A DNA stretch of 64,000 bases, from NCBI RefSeq assembly GCF_023078375.1, contig NZ_CP095554.1, positions 744,001-808,000 of the forward strand, in the 5' to 3' direction. The DNA comes from Roseomonas gilardii subsp. gilardii. Its GTDB lineage: Bacteria; Pseudomonadota; Alphaproteobacteria; Acetobacterales; Acetobacteraceae. Below the pieces are notes generated by a model. It did no database searches. It was not told the origin of the DNA and saw nothing but the letters and a program-made list of their open reading frames with translations. This document shows positions 1 to 36,440 of the stretch, in pieces. The first letter of the stretch is position 1; every line of letters begins with the position of its first letter. The position numbers and the translations under genes were made by a program.

Positions 1-299
1 GGCTCCAGCAGGGGGCCTTCGCCCTCGGCGAAGCGCAGGGGCTGGCCCAGCGCCCAGGGCACCATCAGGATGTCGCTGAACAGGATGGCGGCATCGAAGC
101 CGTAGCGCCGGAGCGGCTGGAGAGTCACCTCGGTCGCCAGTTCCGGGTTGGTGCAGAGACTCACGAAATCCCCGGCCAGCGCCCGGACCTCCCGGTACTC
201 GGGCAGATAGCGGCCGGCCTGGCGCATCAGCCAGAGCGGCGGCGGCCAGACGGCCTCGCCGGCCAGGGCTCGAAGGAAGGGCTTGTCCGGCATGTCCAT
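1..299 (-). CDS. hemE: Uroporphyrinogen decarboxylase, N-terminal part (cut by window edge)
   Basis: HemE decarboxylates the four acetate side chains of uroporphyrinogen III to give coproporphyrinogen III in cytoplasmic haem synthesis. Only the first ~99 residues lie in the window. They start [15 protein letters not shown] and carry the family signature [16 protein letters not shown], whose arginines contact substrate carboxylates, followed by [11 protein letters not shown]. The ATG at 299 is chosen; a second in-frame ATG lies two codons later. The gene diverges from the PPSR gene across a 315 bp gap with origin-like features, the same neighbourhood as Caulobacter and Rickettsia origins. Identification is secure; the C-terminal part is outside the window. 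Confidence 0.95.
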
Positions 300-356
300 G
301 GTCCCTTCTCACTCGAAAATAAGAGTCAGAGAAGAGATGAGGTGGTCTGTAGGGCC

Positions 357-365
357 TGTGGATAA
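357..365 (-). promoter_or_regulatory. DnaA box (exact consensus)
   Basis: TGTGGATAA is the exact reverse complement of the consensus DnaA box TTATCCACA. It lies 58 bp upstream of the hemE start, inside the candidate origin. Confidence 0.75.
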
Positions 366-400
366 AGGGGACGCAGGGCATCCACAGACTCATGCCGGAG

Positions 401-409
401 TTTTCCACA
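401..409 (+). promoter_or_regulatory. DnaA box (relaxed consensus)
   Basis: TTTTCCACA fits the relaxed DnaA-box consensus TTWTNCACA. It faces the exact box at 357-365 and abuts the dense GANTC array that begins at 416. Confidence 0.65.
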
Positions 410-614
410 GAGCCTGAGTCGGGGTGACTCGGCGAGTCAGGGCGAGTCGCTGACTCAGTCCCTGAGTCACACCGGGCCTGTGACTCAGCCATCCCGAGTG
501 GGACGGGATGTGACTCGTCATCCCCGACTCTCCCCGCCTATGAGTCAGGGAGGGGAGTTTTCCCCCGGATGCACCATCTTCCCCGCTTTCCTCCACCGTT
601 TCACAGTGGGGCCC

Positions 615-1511
615 ATGTCCACCCGCGCCATCAACCTCCACCTGATTTCCGACAGCACCGGCGAGACGCTGGCCTCCATGGCCCGCGCCACCCTGGCGCG
701 GTTCGAGGACCCCCATTGCATCCAGCACCGCTGGTTCCTGGTCCGGTCCCGCTTCCAGCTCGAACAGGTGCTGGAAGGCATCCAGGCCGAGCCCGGGCCG
801 GTGCTCTTCACCATCGCCGACCGCTCCATCCGGCACAGCCTGGAGGAGTTCTGCGGCCGGCTGGGGGTGCGCAGCCTTTCCGTGCTGGACCAGACGCTGG
901 AGCTCCTCCAGACCGAGATCGGTGAGCATGCGCGGGAGAAGCGGGCCGCCCAGCATGTGCTGGATGCCGACTATTTCCGCCGCATCGACGCCATGCACTA
1001 CGTGCTGGCGCATGATGACGGGCAGGGCACGGCCGGTATCCACGAGGCCGATGTCTGCCTCGTGGGCGTTTCCCGCTCCTCCAAGACCCCGACCTGCTTC
1101 TACCTCGCCAACCGGGGCATCAAGGCCGCCAACGTCCCCATCGTCCCCGGCGCCCCCCTGCCGGAGGAGCTGAACGATCCGCCCTGCCCGGTGATCGGCC
1201 TGACCATCGACGTGCATTCGCTGATCGAGATCCGCCGCCACCGCCTCAAGCTGATCGGCGGGGCCGGGGTGCGGCAGGACAGCACGGATTACGTGGACCA
1301 GGAGGCGGTGAAGGCCGAGATCCTGGCGGCACGCCGGCTCTGCACCTCCCGCGGCTGGCCGGTGATCGACGTCACCCGCCGCTCCATCGAGGAAACCGCG
1401 GCCACGGTGGTGCAGCTCATCGAGGCCTGGCACCTCCGCCGGGCCCGCGCCGCGGCGCCCTACAAGCCACAGGACCCGGCGGCGGAGGTCATGGGCCGGC
1501 CGGCCGGCTGA
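615..1511 (+). CDS. Pyruvate, phosphate dikinase regulatory protein (PPSR, DUF299 family)
   Basis: Proteins of this family are bifunctional ADP-dependent kinase / Pi-dependent pyrophosphorylases that switch pyruvate phosphate dikinase or PEP synthetase off and on by threonine phosphorylation. The 298-residue product begins [18 protein letters not shown], the typical family opening, and carries the P-loop-like stretch [18 protein letters not shown] near residue 155. The ATG at 615 is preferred. The reading frame stays open to 480, but the upstream part translates the GANTC repeats and has no family similarity. It diverges from hemE across the candidate origin, as expected for alphaproteobacteria. 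In relatives maf follows directly; here metX, yeeE and a Na/Pi transporter gene intervene. Confidence 0.93.
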
Positions 1512-1898: not shown

Positions 1899-3053
1899 TC
1901 AGACGCCGAGCTGTTCCGCCGCGCCGCGCAGGAAGCCGCGCAGGGTGTGCCGGAATTCCGGCTCGTCCAGCAGGAAGGCGTCGTGTCCCTTGTCGGAGGC
2001 GATCTCCAGAAAGGAGACATTGGCCGCCGCCTTGTTCAGTGCCCGCACGATCTCGCGCGATTCCTCGGTCGGGAAAAGCCAGTCGGAGGAGAAGGAGGTG
2101 AGGAGGAAGCGCGTCCGCGTGCCCTGGAAGGCCAGGGACAGGTCCCCGCCATGTTCCGCCGAGAGGTCGAAGTAGTCCATCGCCCGGGTGATGGTCAGGT
2201 AGGAATTGGCGTCGAAGCGGCGCACGAAGGTCGAGCCCTGGTGCCGCAGATAGCTTTCCACCTGGAACACGTCCTCCAGGAAGGTCAGCGCCTTGGCGCC
2301 CTGGAGGCGGCGGCCGAACTTCCGGGCCAGCGCGGCCTCGGACAGATAGGTGATGTGGGCCACCATGCGCGCCACGCTCAGGCCGCGCGCCGGGATCCGG
2401 CCATCCTCCCAGTAGCGGCCGCCCTTCCAGTCCGGATCGGAATGGATGGCGGCGCGGCCCACCTCGTCGAAGGCGATGTTCTGCGCCGAATGATGCGCGG
2501 CGGTGGCGATGGCCACGCAGGCGAAGACGCGGTCCGGGAAGGTCGCCGCCCATTCCAGCGCCTGCATCCCACCCATGGAGCCGCCGACCACGGCCAGCAG
2601 GCGCGTGATCCCCAGATGCTCGACCAGCCTGGCCTGCGCCCGCACCATGTCGCGGATGGTGATGACGGGGAAATCCGTGCCCCAGGGCCGGCCGAGCCCG
2701 CGCCCCTCGGCATCCGTCATCTCCTCCCGCGGGCCGGTGGAGCCCATGCAGCCGCCCAGCACATTGGCGCAGATGACGAAGAAGCGGTCCGTGTCGATCG
2801 CATCGCCCGGCCCGACCACGCCCTTCCACCAGCCGTCGCGGCCGGTCACCGGATGCGGCTCGGCCACATACTGGTCGCCAGTCAGGGCATGGCAGATCAG
2901 GATCGCGTTGGAGGCATCGGCGTTCAGCCGGCCATAGGTGCGATAGGCCACCGCCATGGGCGCGATGGTCATGCCGCAATCCAGGGCCAGCCCGTCCGCG
3001 AAGACGGCGCGCTGGTGTTCCACGCTCGGGAGAGGTGCCAGGGTATCGCTCAC
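1899..3053 (-). CDS. metX: Homoserine O-acyltransferase (MetX family)
   Basis: MetX acylates L-homoserine using acetyl- or succinyl-CoA, the first committed step of methionine synthesis. The 384-residue protein is an alpha/beta hydrolase fold enzyme of usual length. The nucleophile serine lies in [13 protein letters not shown] near residue 158, the catalytic aspartate in [10 protein letters not shown] and the histidine in KGHDAFLL near the C-terminus. Sequence inspection cannot decide acetyl versus succinyl specificity; alphaproteobacterial enzymes of both kinds exist. The chosen start is a GTG at 3053 with no clear Shine-Dalgarno sequence, so the first residues are uncertain. Its usual partner metW is not adjacent but lies 4.7 kb away on the other strand. 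Repeat copies A and B flank the gene. Confidence 0.93.
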
Positions 3054-3137: not shown

Positions 3138-3472
3138 CGGCCCCGGGGGAGAGGCGCCGCCTCTCCCGCCGGACTCCCACTCCGCCCATGACCATGATCA
3201 GGACCGGAGCCGGTCCCCGGACCCCGGGCTTTCGCTGGCTCCGGTGGTGGGCGCTGTTTCCCGGCCCGGTCCCTGGGCGCAGGTGGACCGGCGGGGCGCC
3301 CGAAAAGAAAAACAACACCGTGTCCGCACTGGCGGCACTGGCAGTCGCCGGAGAGCCAAGCTCTCCGGCGCGATCCGGCCACAGCAAATGCCAACGAATG
3401 GGGTCCAGGGCGCGCAGCGTCCTGGCGGAAAAGGGGGTCCGGGGGAAAAGGCGGAGCCTTGTCCCCCGGGGC
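3138..3472 (-). repeat. Dispersed intergenic repeat, family 1, copy B (inverted relative to A)
   Basis: This ~335 bp copy lies between the metX start and the yeeE stop. It is the reverse complement of copies A and D: the A-tract AAAAGAAAAAC comes before the hairpin at 3346-3370, and the G/C-rich end GGGGGAAAAGGCGGAGCC lies at the right. Because it sits just past the yeeE stop codon it could terminate yeeE transcription, with the tract read as T on the minus strand. Confidence 0.85.
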
Positions 3473-14392: not shown

Positions 14393-15217
14393 ATGAGCGC
14401 CGAGGTCCATGGACTCGACCAATTCTACGCATCGCCCACCGGGATCGTTGCCAAGCGATTGCTACGGGCCAGGCTGCGTGCCGTCTGGCCTGAACTCGCG
14501 GGGAGCGATGTGCTGGGCGTCGGCTATGCCGGCCCCTATCTGCGCCTCTGGCGCCGCCGCGCCGCGCGGCTGATCTCGGTCGCGCCCCTACAGGGGCCGC
14601 CGCCGGGCCGGCTGTCGCCCTGGCCGGCGGATGGCCCCTGCGCCCTGGCCCTGGCCGAGGAGGAGAACCTGCCTTTCCCGGATCTCAGCTTCGACAATGT
14701 GCTGATGATCCACGGGCTGGAACATGCCGACCATACGAGGCGCCTGTTGCGGGAGGTCTGGCGCGTCTTGCGGGATGAGGGGCGGCTCCTGGTCGTGGTG
14801 CCGAACCGGCGCAGCATCTGGGCGCATCTGGACCATACGCCGCTGGGCCATGGGCAGCCCTATACCCCGGCCCAGCTCGCGAAGCTGCTGGAACGCGGCA
14901 TGTTCCACGTGGAACGTCGCGATGGCGCGCTGTTCGTGCCACCTTTCCGGTCCAGGCTGCTGCTGCGGACGGCGCGGCTCTGGGAAGGTGCCGGCCGCGC
15001 CCTTTCACCGAAACTGTCGGGCGTGACGATCATGGAGGCCCGCAAGGAGGTCTTCGGTGCGCTGCCGCTGAGGAGCCAGCCGAGCGGCCGGCGAGTGACC
15101 GTGCCCGCCTGGGTCGGCCGTGGCCTGGCGCCGGCGGCCCGGGAACAGGGCCATGCCTCGCCGTCGGATGAGGTTCTGGCGCGCGAGGGCGATCTGGGGA
15201 CCGAAGCGCCGCGTTGA
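14393..15217 (+). CDS. Class I SAM-dependent methyltransferase
   Basis: The 274-residue protein has a Rossmann-type methyltransferase core: VLGVGYAGPYLRLW (motif I) near residue 40, FPDLSFDNVLMIHGLEHAD near residue 100, then LREVWRVLRDEGRLLVVVPNR. It resembles the methyltransferase that sits opposite gloB in many alphaproteobacteria; substrate unknown. The ATG at 14393 gives MSAEVHGLDQFYASP, consistent with family starts. The stretch encoding RGMFHVERRD contains a parS-like palindrome (14901-14916), so this part of the gene may be under a second, non-coding constraint. Confidence 0.88.
   Translation: MSAEVHGLDQFYASPTGIVAKRLLRARLRAVWPELAGSDVLGVGYAGPYLRLWRRRAARLISVAPLQGPPPGRLSPWPADGPCALALAEEENLPFPDLSFDNVLMIHGLEHADHTRRLLREVWRVLRDEGRLLVVVPNRRSIWAHLDHTPLGHGQPYTPAQLAKLLERGMFHVERRDGALFVPPFRSRLLLRTARLWEGAGRALSPKLSGVTIMEARKEVFGALPLRSQPSGRRVTVPAWVGRGLAPAAREQGHASPSDEVLAREGDLGTEAPR
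14901..14916. promoter_or_regulatory. parS: parS-like ParB binding site inside a methyltransferase gene
   Basis: TGTTCCACGTGGAACG contains the perfect 14 bp palindrome GTTCCACGTGGAAC, the core of known chromosomal parS sites (for example TGTTTCACGTGAAACA and its C/G variants). It lies 15 kb from the candidate oriC and 20 kb from parAB, within the distance expected for parS clusters. Confidence 0.8.
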
Positions 15218-34097: not shown

Positions 34098-34979
34098 TCA
34101 GGCATCGCCCGGATGCGGCGCCGCGCCGGGCTTCAGCAGGCGCAGGACGGCTTCGAGCTGATCGAGGTCGCGCCAGGACAGCACCAGCTTGCCGCCCTTG
34201 CCGGACCGCTTGATGGCCACGCCCAGGCCCAGGCGCTCGCCCAGGTCCTTCTCCAGCGCCCGGGTTTCCGGGTCCGACACCGTGCGCGCGGCGCTCGGCC
34301 GGGCGGGGGAGGCAGCGGCCAGCGCCTCGGTCTGGCGGACGTTCAGCCCCCGGGTCACCACCTGCTCGGCCAGCGCCACCGGGTCGTCGGCGGTCAGCAG
34401 GGCACGGGCATGGCCGGCGGTGAGCGAGCCGGAGGAAAGCAGGGCGCGCACCTTCTCCGGCAGGTTCAGCAGGCGCAGCGTATTGGCGACATGGCTGCGG
34501 CTCTTGCCCACCGCCTGGCCCAGCGTCTCCTGCTTCAGGCCGAAATCGTCGAGCAGGCGCTGGTAGCCGATCGCCTCCTCCAGCGGGTTCAGGTCCTCGC
34601 GCTGCAGGTTCTCCACGAGGCCGGCCGCCATGGCGGTGCGGTCGTCGAAGTCGCGGACGACGACGGGGACCTCGTGCTGCTTCGCGAGCTGGGCCGCGCG
34701 CCACCGGCGCTCGCCGCCGATGATCTGCCAGAGGCCGCTATGGCCGGGCTTCGGCCGCACCAGGATCGGCTGGAGGATGCCATGCTCCCGGATGGATTCC
34801 GCCAGTTCCTGGAGGGCCTCCGGCTCCATCGGGCCGCGCGGCTGGAAGGGGCCGGGCTCCAGCGCCTCGATCGGCAGCATGCGCTGGTGGTCATGGGGGG
34901 CGGCGGTGCTGGCGACGGCGACGGGGGCATCACCCAGCAGGGCCGACAGGCCCATGCCGAGACGGGCAGGCTTCTTCAC
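34098..34979 (-). CDS. parB: Chromosome-partitioning protein ParB
   Basis: ParB is a CTPase that binds parS, spreads along DNA and is moved by ParA. The 293-residue protein has the typical N-terminus KKPARLGMGLSALLGD, the ParB/Srx domain with IIGGERRWRAAQLA (GERRxR CTP-binding motif), LVENLQREDLNPLEEAIGY, a helix-turn-helix region GQAVGKSRSHVANTLRLLNL and a C-terminal dimerisation domain. Two parS-like sites lie in the window (14901-14916 and 36418-36431). It overlaps parA by four bases. Confidence 0.96.
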   Translation of the reverse strand: MKKPARLGMGLSALLGDAPVAVASTAAPHDHQRMLPIEALEPGPFQPRGPMEPEALQELAESIREHGILQPILVRPKPGHSGLWQIIGGERRWRAAQLAKQHEVPVVVRDFDDRTAMAAGLVENLQREDLNPLEEAIGYQRLLDDFGLKQETLGQAVGKSRSHVANTLRLLNLPEKVRALLSSGSLTAGHARALLTADDPVALAEQVVTRGLNVRQTEALAAASPARPSAARTVSDPETRALEKDLGERLGLGVAIKRSGKGGKLVLSWRDLDQLEAVLRLLKPGAAPHPGDA

Positions 34980-35860
34980 GGGGTCTCCTTCTCGGCGGCC
35001 GTTTCCGCCTCGGGAGCGGGGCCTGCCGTGCGCTTGCGGGCGCGTTCGCGCTTCAGCAGCTCGGCGGCGAGGCGGATATAGGCCTGCGCGCCCGCCGAGC
35101 GGGAATCATAGAGGATCACCGGTAGCCCGTGGGAGGGCGCCTCGCTGACCCGGACATTGCGGGGGATGGTGGTCTCGAAGACCTTGTCCTTGAAGAAGGA
35201 GCGCACATCGGCCCCGACCAGCTCGGACAGGTTGTTGCGCCGGTCCACCATGGTCAGGACGATGCCCTCCAGCTCCAGCGCCGGGTTCAGGCCGCGCCGC
35301 ACGCGGTCCAGCGTCCGGGCGATCTGGGACACGCCTTCCAGCGCGAAGAACTCGGCCTGCAACGGCACCAGCACGGAATGCGCGGCGACGAGCGCGTTCA
35401 GCGTGACCAGCCCCAGCGAGGGCGGGCAGTCGAAGATGATGCGGTCGTAGTCCTTGAGCACATCGCCCCCGGCATCGAGCGCCTCGGCGAGGCGGCGCTC
35501 GCGCTTCTCCTCGTTCACCAGCTCCACCTCCGCGGCCGCGAGATCGGCATCGGCGGGGAGGAGGGAGAGGTTGGGGATCTGCGTCGGGGCGATCACCTCG
35601 GCCAGGGTCTTCTGGCCGGTGAGCAGCGCATAGGTTCCGGCGCCGCGCTGGGCGCGCGGGCTGCCGAGGCCGGTGGAGGCATTGCCCTGCGGATCGAGGT
35701 CGATCAGCAGCACGCGCTCGGTGGAGGCCAGGGCGGTGGCGAGGTTCACCGCCGTCGTGGTCTTGCCCACGCCACCCTTCTGGTTGGCGAGGGCAAGGCG
35801 GTGGGCCGGTCGGGAGGACCCGGGGCCACGCCGCCGGGGAGAGGTATCAGAGGCCGGCAC
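34976..35860 (-). CDS. parA: Chromosome-partitioning ATPase ParA
   Basis: ParA is the ATPase that pulls ParB-parS complexes apart. The 294-residue product has the deviant Walker A motif ANQKGGVGKTTTAVNLATAL near residue 26, IDLDPQGNASTGLG, and Walker B-like IIFDCPPSLGLVTLNAL. A ~20-residue basic, disordered N-terminus ([20 protein letters not shown]) precedes it. It overlaps rsmG by 14 bases and parB by 4, giving a tight mnmG-rsmG-parA-parB operon. Confidence 0.96.
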   Translation of the reverse strand: MPASDTSPRRRGPGSSRPAHRLALANQKGGVGKTTTAVNLATALASTERVLLIDLDPQGNASTGLGSPRAQRGAGTYALLTGQKTLAEVIAPTQIPNLSLLPADADLAAAEVELVNEEKRERRLAEALDAGGDVLKDYDRIIFDCPPSLGLVTLNALVAAHSVLVPLQAEFFALEGVSQIARTLDRVRRGLNPALELEGIVLTMVDRRNNLSELVGADVRSFFKDKVFETTIPRNVRVSEAPSHGLPVILYDSRSAGAQAYIRLAAELLKRERARKRTAGPAPEAETAAEKETP

Positions 35861-36440
35861 GTCGTATCCCGGAGATGCGGAGAAGAGTGGCGGAAGGGTC
35901 GGTCCCGCTGGGGAACCGCTCCACCGCCATGGACCATGAGGGGGTGGCCTCGGTCAACTCGGCCTCGGCGGTTTTGCCCTTCGGGAACAAGGCAATGCCC
36001 TCCGGCGCCAGGAAACGGGCGGCATAGGGCAGCAGCAGTTTGAGCGGCGCCAGGGCGCGGGCGGTCAGCACGCCCAGCGGGGGGAGGGTGGTGTCCTCGA
36101 TCCGGCGCGGATGCACGGTGATGTTCCGGGCGCCCAATTCCCCCGCCACGGCCTGGAGGAAGGCGGCCTTGCGCTTGTCCGCTTCCACGAGGTTCCAGAG
36201 GCGCGCGGGCTCGGCCAGGGCCAGCACCATGCCGGGCAGCCCGCCGCCCGAGCCGAGATCGGCGGCCGGCATCTGGTTGCCGGGGAGGAGGGGGAGGAGC
36301 TGGAGCAGATCCTCGATATGCCGGGTGCGGAATTCGGCGGCGTCGCGCGGGGCGATCAGGTTGATCCGCTCGTTCCAGCGCAGCAGCATCGCGGCATAGG
36401 CATCCAGCCGTTCCCGCGTTTCACGTGGAACCTTGGTCAT
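35847..36440 (-). CDS. rsmG: 16S rRNA (guanine-N7) methyltransferase RsmG
   Basis: RsmG (GidB) methylates G527 of 16S rRNA. The 197-residue protein carries [19 protein letters not shown], the SAM motif [17 protein letters not shown] and [19 protein letters not shown]. Its start codon overlaps the mnmG stop as ATGA. A parS-like palindrome covers codons 4-8 (36418-36431). In Caulobacter parS sites also lie near gidB. Confidence 0.95.
36418..36431. promoter_or_regulatory. parS: parS-like ParB binding site at the 5' end of rsmG
   Basis: GTTTCACGTGGAAC differs from the perfect palindromes GTTTCACGTGAAAC and GTTCCACGTGGAAC by one base in one arm only, and the central CACGTG core is intact. It lies 1.4 kb upstream of parB, a usual parS location. 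Confidence 0.75.

Follow-up and report, generated by a model that had tools for sequence, protein, structure and literature searches.

The 315-bp gap between the divergent hemE and PPSR genes at positions 300 to 614 of the window (the whole 64,000-nt stretch analyzed here) is very probably the DnaA-dependent origin of the main Roseomonas chromosome. The 12 GANTC words in this gap are probably a selected array of methylation sites for CcrM, the alphaproteobacterial methyltransferase that targets GANTC. The joint reading that we favor, with some reserve, is that of a DnaA origin carrying a selected array of CcrM sites, whose methylation would gate re-initiation. The origin location belongs to a known class and is not new; the dense CcrM-site array is the new part. 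Feature coordinates are collected in Table 1.

Table 1. Features of the hemE/PPSR gap and its surroundings (window coordinates).
Feature	Position	Strand	Basis or remark
hemE (uroporphyrinogen decarboxylase), 5' part	3–299	-	Pfam URO-D, E = 7e-39; gene runs on left of the window
Candidate chromosomal origin, hemE/COG1806 gap, 315 bp, 60% GC	300–614		Synteny, KOPS, DnaA core conservation
30-bp stretch with the lowest GC in the gap (11/30), candidate unwinding element	306–335		Holds GANTC 323–327; role inferred
Array of 12 GANTC (CcrM) sites, all GAGTC/GACTC	323–546		Word count
DnaA box TTATCCACA, exact	357–365	-	Word scan
Weak DnaA box GCATCCACA, 2 mismatches	378–386	+	Word scan; GANTC 387–391 directly abutting
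DnaA box TTTTCCACA, 1 mismatch	401–409	+	Word scan
Densest array part, six GANTC sites	416–468		Word count; 8–12 bp spacing
PPSR gene (COG1806/DUF299, kinase-pyrophosphorylase), right-hand origin neighbor	615–1511	+	Pfam Kinase-PPPase, E = 3.9e-83
parS-like site	14901–14916		3 mismatches to the assumed consensus
parB	34098–34979	-	Pfam ParB_N, HTH_ParB, ParB_C
parA	34976–35860	-	Pfam AAA_31, E = 2.3e-55
rsmG (GidB)	35847–36440	-	Pfam GidB, E = 3.3e-39
parS-like site	36417–36432		3 mismatches to the assumed consensus
mnmG (GidA), predicted start codon	36437–38428	-	Pfam GIDA, E = 5.8e-157

The window covers bases 744001 to 808000 of a 4.20-Mb contig in a genome of 4.62 Mb. Among the named matches listed, Roseomonas mucosa comes closest, with a PPSR protein 97% identical to the one encoded in the window. 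Pfam matches and coordinates confirmed the divergent flanking genes and the length of the gap given in the preliminary description, with the hemE start codon at position 299 on the minus strand. The parAB, rsmG, and mnmG genes, which it had placed 34–38 kb away, were likewise identified by Pfam and lie 33.5–37.8 kb to the right of the gap. The GC content of the gap compares with mostly 69–71% (range 63–76%) in the 20 first-sampled stretches of the same chromosome. An Rfam scan of the window gave no match at gathering thresholds. Elsewhere in the window, two pairs of inverted repeats (1557–1737 and 3264–3444, 181 nt, 92% complementary; 1754–1800 and 3201–3247, 47 nt, 94%) flank a gene of the alpha/beta-hydrolase fold at 1899–3053, and they may represent a GC-rich repeat that is dispersed among intergenic regions.

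The Caulobacter origin sits between hemE and COG1806, and the predicted origin of Rickettsia prowazekii lies at the same pair (PMC1914354), in line with the earlier statement that both origins lie beside hemE. Among 120 family genomes searched, PPSR was present in 98, and a divergent hemE adjoined it in 84 of these, where the length of the gap had a median of 310.5 bp (interquartile range 293–329). The other 14 PPSR loci were excluded: two lie at contig edges, and 12 (L095, L109–L111, and L113–L120) gave no hemE match in the approximately 1.6 kb upstream in a search that used the hemE N-terminus only as query. The origin neighborhood may be rearranged in these 12 lineages. The divergent arrangement was found in 80/80 named loci (the best 80 of 215, a set that shares species with the family set) and in 55/60 genomes of other families of the class, hand-picked at one per family among the matches listed (205/290 genomes matched); the other five were dropped for want of a hemE match. 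Because the same gene pair lies at the Caulobacter and Rickettsia origins and is widely kept, this class of origin location is already known. The Roseomonas locus has its features, namely a divergent hemE/COG1806 pair with a gap of 315 bp (approximately 300–700 bp in the class), several DnaA boxes (one exact, one with a single mismatch, and one with two), and a polarity switch with nearby par sites (KOPS, parS, and parAB), the GC skew being weak. As a separate observation, the hemE N-terminus in 11 of the 15 genus genomes (L135–L144 and L025) is just 66–69% identical to that of the window, a lower value than many other genera of the family show (up to 89%); PPSR of those 11 congeners is 82–86% identical. 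It is possible that hemE was replaced in this subclade of the genus.

The origin was mapped at chromosome scale by KOPS polarity because the GC-skew signal was too weak. The background for KOPS, parS, and GANTC clusters was 1.096 Mb sampled from the 4.62 Mb. The E. coli FtsK-orienting word GGGNAGGG (KOPS) had 490 matches in this sample. In the best two-arm split, which scored 226, the origin falls at 720–730 kb and the terminus at 2.95 Mb; splits at the gap (744.5 kb) and at dnaA (3.61 Mb) scored 218 and 122, respectively, and the highest score among 200 sign shuffles was 100. This optimum is broad, as scores of 222–226 recur between 660 and 740 kb (222 also at 660–670 kb), and the stretch directly left of the gap (724–744 kb) shows right-arm polarity (9:4), so that the origin is placed to approximately 100 kb and not to the gap itself. 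For the congener G130 (PPSR 83% identical), sampled as 20 stretches over 0.2–3.07 Mb of a 5.47-Mb contig, a split at its own PPSR scored 83 versus a best of 85 located 0.54–0.67 Mb to the left, a small margin that carries no shuffle control. The GC-skew check suggested in the preliminary description gave a weak signal on the sampled chromosome. With the arms set from the gap, the skew fell on the correct side (mean signed skew 0.011, permutation p = 0.019); when the terminus was taken as symmetric, the optimum moved to 1.175–1.25 Mb, away from the gap, which we count as evidence against.

Words resembling parS, matched with up to three mismatches to what we take to be the consensus, occurred six times in the 1.096 Mb. 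Five of them lie within 196 kb around the gap (644–840 kb), at 690.8, 709.8, 736.8, 758.9, and 780.4 kb, and the remaining 900 kb sampled hold just one, at 634.9 kb. The two located in the window are those reported earlier, with three mismatches each, and another, with two mismatches, lies approximately 7.5 kb left of the gap.

The word scan recovered all three DnaA boxes described previously, the exact, the relaxed, and the weak one. Their significance rests on conservation, as number alone is not beyond chance: the window has three boxes with up to one mismatch versus 1.63 expected, and at least three were present in 21/100 shuffles. The exact word TTATCCACA has five copies in the 4.62-Mb genome, and the reversed control word has 14. 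When the hemE–PPSR gaps were compared across the family, a check that the preliminary description had proposed, the DnaA core TCCACA was present in 82/84 homologous gaps, at least twice in 64 of them. Its density is 6.8/kb in the gaps versus 0.17/kb in the flanks, a 39-fold difference relative to flanks of mainly coding DNA. Synteny, conservation of the boxes, the KOPS switch (less sharp in the congener), and the cluster of parS and parAB support the chromosomal origin proposed at the outset. The breadth of the KOPS switch (660–740 kb) and the parS-like sites at 690.8 and 709.8 kb would also suit an origin elsewhere within approximately 100 kb, with the gap as merely conserved neighboring DNA; given the known origin gene pair, the conserved DnaA cores, and the narrow range of gap lengths, we regard this as highly improbable and continue with the gap as the origin.

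The dense GANTC array was absent from the observations of the preliminary description and was found on re-analysis. Its sites start at 323, 387, 416, 426, 434, 444, 452, 464, 482, 512, 526, and 542, which amounts to 12 in 224 bp; elsewhere in the 1.096 Mb the word occurs at approximately 1/kb, and the next densest 224 bp holds five. Dinucleotide shuffles of the gap gave 2.8 expected sites and reached 12 in 0/2000 trials, and across the 64,000-nt window GANTC is strongly under-represented (78 versus 218.7 expected from shuffles). All 15 genus genomes, including this one, have 11–14 sites in the gap, where shuffles expect 2–3; the genus shuffle and near-miss counts used 13 of the 15, excluding the near-duplicates L024 and L135, and counts within the genus lack independence, as these genomes share ancestry. 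The G130 gap has 14 sites, and the densest other 224 bp in 400 kb sampled from that genome has four.

Alignment of the genus gaps placed GANTC at 32 distinct positions, three of them invariant across the 15 rows. Conservation per site was clearly above that of other columns within the two subclades (0.888 versus 0.700 and 0.860 versus 0.738); between them, it was 0.521 versus 0.528 from subclade A to B and 0.607 versus 0.511 from B to A. With so many positions, and with A-to-B columns no more conserved than others, it is the number of sites that is kept, through turnover, and not fixed positions. Short GAGTC repeats occur in the gap, as a cluster arisen by chance or repeat expansion might show, yet the shuffles, together with the genus-wide number of sites, their irregular spacing, and their turnover, already contradict such an artefact, which we consider scarcely credible.

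Among the named loci (best 80 of 215), 17 have at least 10 GANTC sites (11 in Roseomonas and Pararoseomonas, five in Belnapia, and one in a Craurococcus MAG) and 11 have 6–9. The hemE gaps of Belnapia/Craurococcus and Pseudoroseomonas are of similar length but have fewer sites (10–11 and 4–8, respectively), and in the family sample the sites of other genera stand in a different context. The enrichment is milder there: 81 family gaps outside the genus hold 193 sites versus 108 expected, with 56/81 above expectation and a density of 7.5/kb versus 1.1/kb in mainly coding flanks. The 55 gaps of other families hold 167 versus 109.9 expected, 34/55 being above expectation, at 6.7/kb versus 1.8/kb in flanks that are again mainly coding. 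As just 0–4 sites are present in 74/84 family gaps, a hemE origin does not need a dense array. Two genomes of two other alphaproteobacterial families (L278 and L280) have 9 and 10 sites in gaps of 352 and 359 bp, and these dense arrays were possibly gained independently.

Counts of the 16 palindromic XYNyx words in the 15 genus gaps gave 190 copies of GANTC and 64 of CCNGG, the next most frequent word; the L025 gap was trimmed to 345 bp for these counts, the alignment, and the near-miss counts. The S-center sites have a preferred context, since 68% of 161 in the genus gaps read YGASTCR compared with 6% of 32 flank sites. This heptamer has 68 copies in the 1.096 Mb sampled, nine of them inside the gap, and the GANTC center base is also conserved inside the genus subclades. 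Such a pattern could mean that the gap is an origin whose array consists of YGASTCR palindromic heptamers for a dedicated dimeric protein, the overlap with GANTC methylation being secondary.

Near-miss words speak to this alternative in that a heptamer-binding protein should tolerate some core changes and a methyltransferase site should not. The 13 genus gaps contain 93 exact heptamers versus 3.3 expected. Near-misses at the Y and R on either side number 27 and 17 versus 4.8 and 4.2 expected (44 versus approximately 9 in total), and those in the core G, A, T, and C number 5, 0, 0, and 2 versus 5.4, 9.6, 8.4, and 4.4 (7 versus approximately 28), all in related gaps. Flank changes are thus tolerated, and core changes, at or below chance, are not, indicating that the exact methylatable GANTC core is held. 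In addition, GATTC/GAATC words set in another context make up 29 of the 190 genus sites, and the YGASTCR preference is missing in other genera of the family (30% in gaps versus 28% in flanks). We therefore judge the heptamer explanation unlikely and retain selection of CcrM sites as the better account. CcrM should accept any center base, while within the YGASTCR context a center changed to A/T was seen once versus 2.0 expected in the 13 gaps. This intolerance is more than CcrM by itself would account for and also fits the heptamer alternative; together with the heptamer preference, it suggests that a reader, or a preference of the enzyme, may act beyond CcrM in the genus.

A CcrM homologue (in L145) is encoded in the genome, with N6_N4_Mtase and RAMA domains and a nearly full-length match to the NCBIfam CcrM model (E = 1.7e-180); its score of 599.5 bits lies below the NCBI equivalog cut-off of 830, and its GANTC specificity is putative. 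GcrA is encoded as well. SeqA (PF03925) was absent from the same genome (G000) in a search that was positive in the E. coli control. Scans of the gap were negative for CtrA sites (TTAA-N7-TTAA, allowing two mismatches), for IHF sites (WATCAANNNNTTR, allowing one mismatch), although a degenerate one may occur, and for the W-box (TCCCCA). Comparison of CcrM presence with GANTC number across families of the class was uninformative: a RAMA match was present in 51/55 genomes, and the four without one, with 6, 3, 2, and 1 sites, were not clearly lower.

Alternatively, the role of the GANTC sites could lie in methylation-sensitive (GcrA/CcrM) transcription of the two divergent genes, hemE and PPSR, and not in replication. 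Both proteins are encoded, and the gap, lying between divergent genes, probably holds both promoters. The context YGAKTCG, presumably of GcrA type, was rejected as an explanation, as it accounts for 29% of genus versus 27% of other G-center gap sites and is thus not specifically enriched. Promoters with methylated GANTC are known targets of GcrA (PMC3667746), but 12 sites in 224 bp is far above the average of 0.4–1.5 per 500-bp promoter (PMC2877005). We view the transcriptional role as improbable, though less so than an origin outside the gap, and return to replication control.

In the mechanism that we propose from these sequence features, DnaA would assemble on the boxes at 357–409 and open the AT-richer stretch at 306–335 on the hemE side. 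One GANTC site lies inside this stretch, another abuts the weak DnaA box, and the dense block follows just to the right. Passage of the fork would leave the array hemimethylated until remethylation by CcrM, assuming methylation and a timing of CcrM in the genus that fit this scheme, and the hemimethylated array would disfavor DnaA assembly or opening in the meantime. The block could act through a reader of hemimethylated GANTC (GcrA or another protein, not SeqA), or methylation itself could ease opening. The methylation sites at the origin may in this way restrict the chromosome to one round of replication in each cell cycle. We hold it to be about evenly balanced whether the methylation state of the array does gate re-initiation.

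Work on other Alphaproteobacteria bears on this step. In Caulobacter and Agrobacterium, CcrM action comes late in the cell cycle (PMC3973325, PMC11514494), and Caulobacter over-expressing CcrM accumulates extra chromosomes (PMC3973325). Gating as a general rule is weakened because Caulobacter cells without ccrM have normal DNA content (PMC3973325) and because, in Agrobacterium, changes in CcrM altered ori2 and not the DnaA-type ori1 (PMC11514494).

The Roseomonas gap shares its flanking genes, DnaA boxes, and a composition AT-richer than the genome with Caulobacter Cori and the Rickettsia hemE/COG1806 origin (PMC1914354). Cori is also reported to carry several GANTC sites (PMC3973325); compared with that description, the Roseomonas array looks much denser. 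Unlike the CtrA- and IHF-controlled Cori, the gap has neither a CtrA site (up to two mismatches) nor an IHF consensus (up to one mismatch). In Agrobacterium, CcrM sites are also clustered at the repABC ori2, and a hemimethylation block has been proposed (PMC11514494); that origin belongs to a RepC-type secondary replicon with its sites in rep promoters, whereas the one described here is a DnaA-type primary origin between housekeeping genes. E. coli oriC has 11 GATC in 232 bp compared with the 12 GANTC in 224 bp here, in both cases mixed with DnaA boxes. Of the features of the Dam/SeqA type, dense sites of an orphan methyltransferase and a homologue of the cognate enzyme are present in Roseomonas and SeqA is absent; the methyltransferase and its word differ, and any effect on initiation here is putative. 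The preliminary description had suggested that the architecture of this origin may be undescribed, which does not apply to its location class and does apply to the unusual dense array. In the literature covered, in part and with few subscription papers, no Roseomonas origin or GANTC array of comparable density was found. A comparative study of Caulobacter origins (Shaheen 2009) is cited in this field for GANTC at origins.

Direct control of DnaA-type alphaproteobacterial origins by CcrM is unsettled, since papers in which Caulobacter is said to need a fully methylated origin for initiation (PMC2865523, PMC2217572) disagree with PMC3973325. An origin that has conserved 11–14 CcrM sites and showed no CtrA site in the scan offers a natural test system for such control. 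Our broadest proposal, tentative and held with somewhat less than even confidence, is that Roseomonas and allied Acetobacteraceae independently evolved a DnaA origin that methylation gates to one firing per cycle. This origin would work without SeqA and, apparently, without local control by CtrA, and would have a CcrM-site density equal to that of GATC in E. coli oriC and a putative sensor of GANTC state, which in the genus prefers YGASTCR. If true, such an origin would mirror Dam/SeqA control by convergence.
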